64,000 bases of DNA, from positions 62,001 through 126,000 of the forward strand of contig JABDRB010000013.1 of NCBI GenBank assembly GCA_013041925.1, written 5' to 3'. Under the pieces are notes generated by a model, which was not told the origin of the DNA, did not search any database, and saw nothing but the letters and a program-made list of their open reading frames with translations. Shown piece by piece: positions 30,847 through 32,871 of this stretch; position 1 is the stretch's first letter; every line of letters starts with the position of its first letter. This DNA is from Akkermansiaceae bacterium. GTDB lineage: Bacteria; Verrucomicrobiota; Verrucomicrobiia; Verrucomicrobiales; Akkermansiaceae. Made by a program: the position numbers and the translations under genes.

Positions 30847-32871
30847 TTAATCGCACGGAACCCACACCGCGATGAACGCCTGAGCTGTTATTGGATCGTT
30901 GATCACCATCGTCCGATTGTGAATATCCTGTGAGCAAAGTCTGGATAACGACGCTTCGCTCAATGTGCTTTTACGTAAAATACGGAAGGTTCCGGCGCGG
31001 CCTGGGCTCAGTTTTTTGTAGAACTCAAATGCCACACGTCCCATGGTCATACGCACGTTGAGCTCGACGATGTGACGCAATCCCAACGAGCCGTCAGCGC
31101 GTCGAAACACCATGGCGTCGACCCCGACCGGCCCCGTGTATCCGCTGAGCAACTTGGGTAATTCCATGGGGATTTTCTCACGATACCACTGCGTCACCTT
31201 CGCCTCACGGAAAAGAAATTCGGCCACCTCTGGGTCTATACCCGAAGCCCATTTGGGGTCGATGCGGGTGCCGAGAAACCGGCCTGCATCGTCATTTTCC
31301 ATCTGGGTCATCCCGATGAAGTCGGCATGAGTCGCTTGGCGACCGGGGGAATGCTTTGCCGCGTCCCCTTGAGGATGCGCTCCCGCTTTCATCTCGTAAA
31401 GAACGGAAAAGTCCATGACGCGGTTCAGCCACGGCTCGACGACGACGCCACCGTGTGCGGCGAGGGTATTTTTTAACCACGGCAGCAGCTCGTCCTCGGA
31501 GTTTCCGGCAGGCAGACGTTTGTGCCTACGCCCAGAACAGGCGTGGGCCGCCTTCAGAAGAACATCCCCACCAGCCCTACGCGCACGCACCGCCGCAAGC
31601 GCCGTTTCCTCATTATAACAAAACTCCCCACAACCATCGGTCAGGCCCAAGCTCTTTTCCAATCGCCCGCCGACCTCCTTACTCAACCACAGGGCAGGGT
31701 CGGCCTGCCTCCATGCCCACGGATGATTCTCCGGCACATCGCCAGCAAAGCGCTGGAGCGTGGCCGAGGCATCCGGCGACCATGCCCACGGACGGAGGCC
31801 ACCGAGTTTTCGATCGGCAAGCTGTTCGATTTCCAAAATTTCCGGCAGCTTGACCCCCGCTTGCTGTAAGCGTGCGAGGTGTGTATTGCTGGGCTGGTGA
31901 CGCACCAAAACAACATCGTCGGGGCGACACCACGCAAGGGCGAGCAACTCCAGATCATTTTCCAATGCGGACTCGATCTTATTGGGTGCAAATGCCCTCC
32001 CCGCAGCTTGCGCCGCCACACAGGATTCTGCATTCGGATTAAACCAATGCACCACGGGTGTCCTGCCACGCGACTGTTCGCAAACTTCCAGATGGCTGAT
32101 AAAATCCTCATCGAACCCAGCCAACCTCCGGCCCTCGGCATTAAAGGGCGCGATCCCCTTGGCCTTGGCTGGCGCCAGCGGAAAGGTCAACGATCTCTTA
32201 AAGGCATGCCAATCCGTCTCCCCCTCCGCTTTCCATTTCCGAAACCACTTCACCCCATGACCGACGTGCCCAATTTCGTCGAGGTAAATTTTTTCCAACA
32301 CAGCGGCCGTCCCAGTATCGCCGACCTGACGGAAAAGCTCCGCATAGTGCTTAGAAAAATCCAGATTCGCCTGTTCGAAGGTCAGGTTCAGGCGGGTGAC
32401 AAAATCCATCGGCGTCTCCATCGGGGCAATCAAGCGCCAGAAATAATGATTCACCGGTAACTCACCAAAGGCGATTCCGCAGTCCTTCATCCGGCGCAGA
32501 TACATCAGCGTATGCATCTGCTCCTCACGCATCGCCTCATAGACACCCCGACGGTATTCCTTGGGAGCATCGGGAAATTTCAACAACACCAACGCCATCA
32601 ACTCGGCCGCAAGTAGCTCATGATTCGCGAGGAAATGCATCATCTTTCCCCGCTCGCGATCCTCATCAAGTCGGTTCACCCCAGGAAAATCCGCCCGAAC
32701 CCCCTTGGCCACAATCTTGAGCTCATCAGGTCGACCCGGGCTATCTGGCACCAAAATCGCACGCCCAGGTGCATCATCACTCACACCCGTCCCCAGCTCG
32801 GGTGCCAGCTGGAGCTTTTCATCAAGCGACTGCGCCAACAAAATCCGCTCAGCCACTTCACGCATTTGCAT
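30847..32871 (-). CDS. DUF455 ferritin-like domain fused to an ATP-grasp-like domain
   Basis: A 674-residue protein with two distinct halves. Residues about 75-215 form a DUF455 ferritin-like four-helix unit with diiron-type ligands: E85/E90, E117-x-x-H120, E166 and E199-x-x-H202. Residues about 420-620 look like ATP-grasp: a lysine-containing strand GGDVLLKAAHACSGRRHK, the hinge VVVEPWLNRVMDFS and the metal-binding H-I-V-E-L-N-V-R-M. ATP-grasp enzymes join a carboxylate to an amine or thiol; DUF455 proteins have no settled function. The substrate is unknown. It stands alone, diverging from the PatB/MalY aminotransferase. Confidence 0.72.
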   Translation of the reverse strand: MQMREVAERILLAQSLDEKLQLAPELGTGVSDDAPGRAILVPDSPGRPDELKIVAKGVRADFPGVNRLDEDRERGKMMHFLANHELLAAELMALVLLKFPDAPKEYRRGVYEAMREEQMHTLMYLRRMKDCGIAFGELPVNHYFWRLIAPMETPMDFVTRLNLTFEQANLDFSKHYAELFRQVGDTGTAAVLEKIYLDEIGHVGHGVKWFRKWKAEGETDWHAFKRSLTFPLAPAKAKGIAPFNAEGRRLAGFDEDFISHLEVCEQSRGRTPVVHWFNPNAESCVAAQAAGRAFAPNKIESALENDLELLALAWCRPDDVVLVRHQPSNTHLARLQQAGVKLPEILEIEQLADRKLGGLRPWAWSPDASATLQRFAGDVPENHPWAWRQADPALWLSKEVGGRLEKSLGLTDGCGEFCYNEETALAAVRARRAGGDVLLKAAHACSGRRHKRLPAGNSEDELLPWLKNTLAAHGGVVVEPWLNRVMDFSVLYEMKAGAHPQGDAAKHSPGRQATHADFIGMTQMENDDAGRFLGTRIDPKWASGIDPEVAEFLFREAKVTQWYREKIPMELPKLLSGYTGPVGVDAMVFRRADGSLGLRHIVELNVRMTMGRVAFEFYKKLSPGRAGTFRILRKSTLSEASLSRLCSQDIHNRTMVINDPITAQAFIAVWVPCD

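Follow-up and report, generated by a model that had tools for sequence, protein, structure and literature searches.

A conserved fusion of a ferritin-like DUF455 domain and an ATP-grasp ligase in Verrucomicrobiota

Why would a bacterium keep on one polypeptide two domains as different as a ferritin-like helical bundle and an ATP-grasp ligase, and what could the pair accomplish together? The gene that raises this question lies on the minus strand of the window (our name for the whole stretch of Akkermansiaceae DNA that was analysed, 64,000 nucleotides long), where an open frame starts with an ATG at 32871, stops at 30847-30849 and encodes a product of 674 aa. The original prediction had the coordinates right, and only the orientation has to be added to them; its central claim, that a DUF455 domain is fused to an ATP-grasp domain in one chain, is borne out by a Pfam match and by the predicted fold. 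AlphaFold models the full length at pLDDT 90 and pTM 0.85, the gene is a single copy in the window genome, and the protein has no match in NCBIfam. We divide it into two halves, joined by a short junction:

30847..32871 (including the stop codon), minus strand: the whole gene, fused DUF455/ATP-grasp, 674 aa; from the open frame, relatives, alignment and dN/dS
32077..32871, minus strand: ferritin-like domain, residues 1-265; from Pfam DUF455, the AF2 bundle and Foldseek
32056..32076, minus strand: junction QSRGRTP, residues 266-272; 93% mean column conservation
30850..32055, minus strand: ATP-grasp ligase, residues 273-674; from AF2 with Foldseek against the PDB, BLASTP and hhalign

What kind of domain is the first half? 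Pfam answers with DUF455 (PF04305) at residues 37-258 (161.7 bits, E 3e-47, the curated cut-off being 34.3 bits), as it does for 37 of 37 homologues, and an AF2 model of residues 1-267 is a four-helix bundle (pLDDT 90.9, pTM 0.91) whose long helices span residues 71-98, 104-130, 154-182 and 186-213. Foldseek finds the best folds among ferritins and bacterioferritin, XCC3681 (3hiu) and aldehyde-deformylating oxygenase, with probabilities of about 1 and TM scores of up to 0.83 on the target but an E-value of 0.06 at best, and a sequence search of the PDB with this domain gave nothing significant. Since such high probabilities go here with weak E-values, we describe the half, as modelled, as ferritin-like without a close solved relative. 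The bundle carries a set of residues that could hold two metal ions:

32617..32619, minus strand: E85, predicted diiron ligand on helix 1; invariant in 37/37 fused and in stand-alone DUF455 proteins
32512..32523, minus strand: E117-x-x-H120, predicted diiron ligands on helix 2; invariant
32374..32376, minus strand: E166, predicted diiron ligand on helix 3; invariant
32266..32277, minus strand: E199-x-x-H202, predicted diiron ligands on helix 4; invariant

Each helix bears one group of the series E / ExxH / E / ExxH, and all six residues (E85, E117, H120, E166, E199 and H202) are kept in every homologue examined, that is, in the 37 full-length proteins and in stand-alone DUF455. The original prediction had also paired E85 with E90; E85 stands, but E90 is invariant in fused proteins only and is probably not a core ligand, because N or D takes its place in the two stand-alone DUF455 proteins of the alignment. 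Those stand-alone proteins (PF04305, COG2833-type, from Neisseria, Sphingomonas and Sinorhizobium) have the same domain and ligand set, but they are single-domain proteins of ~270 aa that lack the ligase half, E90 and the SRGRTP junction, all of which the fused protein has. The literature searched, in its titles and passages, describes no function for DUF455.

Ferritin-like domains can merely store iron or scavenge peroxide, and the first half might be of that sort, an iron- or peroxide-handling or sensing domain (a ferroxidase or peroxidase) that protects the ligase or regulates it by the supply of iron or oxygen. We think this unlikely. Its nearest solved folds, the ferritins and bacterioferritins, speak for it, and so does the peroxiredoxin gene that directly precedes the stand-alone DUF455 gene in three alphaproteobacterial records (L118, L146 and L147), with an M23 peptidase gene next after DUF455 in two of them (L146 and L147); yet the ExxH pairs of helices 2 and 4, together with the conserved second-shell residues (Q118, Q167, N169, D171 and D198), would suit an enzyme site equally well or better, and ligases akin to the second half manage without any such domain in the Bacteroidales records examined.

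The second half belongs to a ligase family that is missing from Pfam: nothing there passes its cut-off (the best, DUF3182, scores 17.8 bits where 26 are needed), and PreAtp-grasp is matched by 3 of 37 homologues at E<=0.01. AF2 and Foldseek do place an ATP-grasp fold in this half. The original prediction had looked for it at residues 420-620, and there the fold was right but the extent was not, the domain covering about 273-674, with K398 and D585 in the site. Against the PDB, Foldseek ranks 8ynd, a Streptomyces ATP-grasp peptide ligase, as best (E 7e-13), and the other neighbours include PGM1 (3wvq/3wvr), PurK, BesA (8yi6), SAOUHSC_02373 (7r8q), PurT and biotin carboxylase. Profile alignments with PurD and 7r8p bring three residues onto standard ATP-grasp positions, namely K398, K440 (together with the Gly-rich loop after it) and E479, and K440 falls on the IVIKADGLAAGKG motif of PurD:

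31678..31680, minus strand: K398 ('SK'), predicted first nucleotide-binding lysine; aligns with the SK of PurD 2yrw/2xcl; 37/37
31552..31554, minus strand: K440 (LLKA), predicted second nucleotide-binding lysine, with the Gly-rich loop next; from the PurD alignment; invariant
31435..31437, minus strand: E479 (VEPW); aligns with VVIEE of PurD and LIIE of 7r8p; invariant
31117..31119, minus strand: D585, presumed Mg ligand; invariant, Bacteroidales included
31036..31065, minus strand: E603-x-N605-x-R607-x-x-M610-G611-R612, predicted Mg and phosphate motif (VELN); 37/37

The metal and ligase residues that had been quoted are real, beyond chance, being identical in all 37 full-length homologues, and the ligase set identical in 37 of 37 comprises K398, K440, E479, D487, D585, E603, N605, R607, M610, G611 and R612. 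Judged by sequence, the two ATP-binding lysines, the adenine-side Glu and the Mg-binding Asp, Glu and Asn are all present; D585, E603 and N605 we take to be the Mg-binding set expected in ATP-grasp. Residue 449 (window 31525-31527), in the Gly-rich loop, is Arg in the window protein and Gly in 32 of the 37, and it is Gly in the closest relative (L019).

Where else does such a ligase occur? A translated search of plasmid records turned up stand-alone versions of ~370-400 aa in Bacteroidales (P0002, which is WP_122246558.1; P0003, which is WP_237923076.1; and L114). BLASTP with the window's C-terminal half reaches P0002 at E 2e-16 and L114 at E 3e-18, and hhalign joins the half to the Bacteroidales ligases at 100% (E 7e-42, 377 columns), co-linear over the whole length. 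They are like the window half in their FNPxxE start and ExNxRxxMG end, but they are only 18-22% identical to it, have Arg at the position of K398, and carry DUF455 neither attached nor elsewhere in their records, which are partial genomes; against Pfam they give no match at a meaningful level. In IMG/VR there was no viral copy with the ligase-half motif, and BFVD gave distant ATP-grasp folds only. Two side observations belong to these records. In L116 and L150 (Bacteroides, Prevotella) the stand-alone ligase gene adjoins an AAA ATPase gene and nifJ, and two of the PLSDB 'plasmids', L117 and L114, are a 2.17-Mb Neisseria gonorrhoeae replicon, which looks chromosomal, and a 1.77-Mb Prevotella replicon.

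What, then, would the second half join? Its best structural neighbours, PGM1, 8ynd and BesA, match at E 7e-13 to 2e-9 with 13-16% identity, and PGM1 is the pheganomycin ligase. The sequence relationship to LdmS (7r8p/7r8q, NF047900) is weak and runs via the Bacteroidales members: NF047900 finds one of them at E 8e-8 and 31.4 bits (its equivalog cut-off is 475 bits), 4 of 23 family members match it at E<=0.1, the window protein not among them, and the ligase family matches PDB 7r8p by sequence at E 0.023. LdmS shares the ATP-grasp fold of the window half (TM 0.64 on the target), but it is without a diiron domain, the window half misses the LdmS model, and Foldseek ranks other peptide ligases above it. 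LdmS is the staphylococcal protein SAOUHSC_02373, listed as an L-aspartate-L-methionine ligase (PMC12235713). Taken together, the fold neighbours and the LdmS relationship make the joining of amino-acid-like substrates through an amide bond the likeliest chemistry of this half.

Is the fusion itself more than an accident? When one genome of each GTDB species was scanned with exact peptide patterns of the window protein, a method that finds close relatives only, 46 loci with relatives came up, all of them in Verrucomicrobiota; 289 genomes of the phylum added 13 more proteins, full-length or nearly so, down to 31% identity, and our main alignment holds 37 full-length fused proteins at 30-83% identity. 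The gene is present in ~90 of 145 genomes of the window's family, where strong DUF455 matches lie in frames of ~600-750 aa, the exceptions being frames apparently truncated at the end of a contig. Throughout the class (335 genomes) 51 of 51 strong DUF455 matches sit in frames of fused size, 632-886 aa, and across the phylum sample (289 genomes) 14 of 14 C-half profile matches are fused. The search for fusions and separated pairs that the original prediction proposed has thus met fusions throughout the class and phylum samples and no separated pairs. The junction QSRGRTP is conserved more than either domain in the 37 full-length proteins, with S267, G269, R270 and P272 in 37 of 37, and it was not seen in the stand-alone DUF455 or stand-alone ligase proteins aligned.

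One could still suppose that the two domains were joined by chance or neutrally and that just one of them works, and a few things lean that way: each half is found alone in other phyla, the ligase half is less conserved (mean identity 0.55, as against 0.71 for the N-terminal half), and the window protein departs from the usual Gly-rich loop. We rate it as most improbable. Both residue sets are invariant on a chain that holds both folds; dN/dS lies well below 1, at 0.03-0.18 in the N-terminal half and 0.09-0.29 in the C-terminal half (computable close pairs, one saturated C-half pair left out), so that purifying selection acts on either half wherever the ratio could be computed; and in neither the class nor the phylum sample are the halves seen apart. 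The fusion is ancient, and selection has kept it as a unit.

In the records examined from outside Verrucomicrobiota the partners part company, though fusions may yet occur in other phyla. The stand-alone DUF455 records (Neisseria, Sphingomonas and Sinorhizobium) have no match to the C-terminal half, the 2.17-Mb Neisseria record has no ligase partner anywhere in it, and no DUF455 was found in the partial genomes that make up the Bacteroidales ligase records. Because each half occurs alone in other phyla, the two predicted activities can exist apart, and neither half would strictly need the other. There is also a hint of oxygen in the distribution: in the family sample all carriers have a heme-copper oxidase, and the 20 genomes without the oxidase (19 of one genus and one incomplete genome) are all without the gene, while another genus has the oxidase and lacks the fused gene. 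This link agrees, weakly, with an N-terminal half that would depend on O2, and it amounts to essentially one evolutionary event.

Do its neighbours tell us the substrate? They do not. Within the window no other gene joins it: on one side lies a convergent M32 carboxypeptidase gene, on the other a divergent class I/II aminotransferase gene. Across the family, 107 neighbours were clustered and scanned with Pfam, and no conserved neighbour, operon partner or precursor peptide emerged; the search covered ORFs down to 70-80 aa, and a peptide much shorter than that could escape it. The earlier remark that no substrate gene adjoins it is true here and across many relatives, and the proposed look at neighbourhood conservation yields no partner common beyond close relatives. 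PGM1, 8ynd and BesA act in gene clusters, and conserved precursor or cluster genes would be expected of graspetide or PGM1-type biosynthesis, whereas none were found conserved around the fused gene.

Some candidates for a partner were considered and dropped. Leucyl-tRNA synthetase, which had the top count (3 of 107 neighbours), is common to few relatives only, and so are the M32 peptidase and the aminotransferase that flank the gene here; a SAM methyltransferase upstream is kept in one close marine clade that shares the whole neighbourhood. The last is a class I enzyme encoded directly upstream and co-directionally (L028:7160-7951, L040:7211-7987, L043:7208-7981 and other marine-clade loci), and in NCBIfam it comes closest to a daptide-type RiPP methyltransferase, at 98 bits with a cut-off of 175.

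A scattered single-gene context and wide retention resemble those of a housekeeping modification, and this suggests a different pair of steps, in which DUF455 would hydroxylate a tRNA or a protein side chain and the ATP-grasp half would then load that macromolecule with an amino acid. MiaE, after all, is a tRNA hydroxylase, and the Neisseria DUF455 protein matches the Pfam MiaE family weakly (E 7e-4, below the cut-off). We think this quite unlikely nonetheless: neither the window protein nor its 37 homologues match MiaE at E<=0.01, the profile search gave no solved MiaE-type chain, and no RNA-binding domain is found by Pfam or in the model.

What do we think the protein does? The two outcomes that would have told against the original prediction, a second half without the ATP-grasp fold and homologues without the metal ligands, were both looked for, and neither occurred. 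That two potentially active sites share one chain is well supported, and the original idea, an enzyme that would modify a small molecule or peptide in two steps, is plausible. In the reading that we prefer, a bifunctional oxidase-ligase would act on an amino acid, a small peptide or a similar amide, and we would bet neither for it nor against it. Both active sites are predictions from residues and models, and we infer iron as the metal, O2 as co-substrate, an amino-acid-type substrate and a coupling of the steps. The C-terminal ATP-grasp half would be a carboxylate-amine ligase of the amino-acid or peptide type, in which ATP would phosphorylate a carboxylate and coupling to an amine would give an amide (dipeptide-like) bond. 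The N-terminal half would hold two irons in its E / ExxH / E / ExxH site and use O2 as oxidant for a hydroxylation, desaturation or N-oxidation, either of a building block before ligation or of the amide after it, and the conserved junction may hold the halves together and so couple the steps on one small-molecule substrate.

Such a pairing of activities has a precedent. Heme-oxygenase-like diiron oxidases (HDOs) stand beside ATP-grasp ligases in at least 25 types of gene cluster, and in mangotoxin biosynthesis the diiron oxidase MboA has MboC and MboD as its partner ligases (PMC13185094). Those clusters pair a diiron oxidase with ATP-grasp amino-acid ligases, as we propose for the fused protein, but HDOs have a heme-oxygenase-like fold and are encoded by separate, clustered genes, whereas the window protein has a ferritin-like DUF455 domain on the same chain as its ligase and no cluster.

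Several things count against the oxidase-ligase reading. A specialised biosynthetic enzyme does not usually lack conserved neighbours, as this one would; each half lives alone elsewhere, and the gonococcal record, which is of complete size, has DUF455 without the ligase; Arg449 sits in the Gly-rich loop of the window protein; no family member, the window protein included, passes the LdmS cut-off; and the titles and passages of the literature searched offer no DUF455 protein of known activity. A narrower form of the oxidase-ligase reading, a single-protein pathway by which O2-respiring Verrucomicrobiota would turn common precursors into an oxidised dipeptide or amide metabolite, with no cluster at all, we put forward only tentatively, as a possibility that we would sooner doubt than believe.

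Two known superfamilies, with a ligase family absent from Pfam, are joined here in a conserved fusion, of which the literature searched holds no description (domain-architecture databases lay outside that check). DUF455 ranges from Neisseria to Verrucomicrobia, and no clue to its function is better than a partner carried on its own chain: the fusion indicates that the DUF455 reaction and an ATP-dependent ligation are neighbouring steps of one pathway. For its part, the second half defines a ligase family that stands alone in gut Bacteroidales and has dipeptide ligases as its nearest characterised kin. Were the single-protein pathway true, it would be the first chemistry both for DUF455 and for this Pfam-unknown ATP-grasp family, and the gene is easy to test because it is single, short and without a cluster.

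Two smaller observations concern relatives of the gene. On the Opitutaceae chromosome OX638348.1 (L064:7995-9919) the fused gene lies in two overlapping frames, divided within the ligase half, by a frameshift or an assembly error. Genomes of the class, mainly of one family, also hold a second set of proteins, ~440-510 aa long (L015-L018 and L098-L107), in which a weak DUF455-like domain (30-54 bits) occupies the C-terminal half, behind ~250 residues without a Pfam match; some genomes have up to four such matches.
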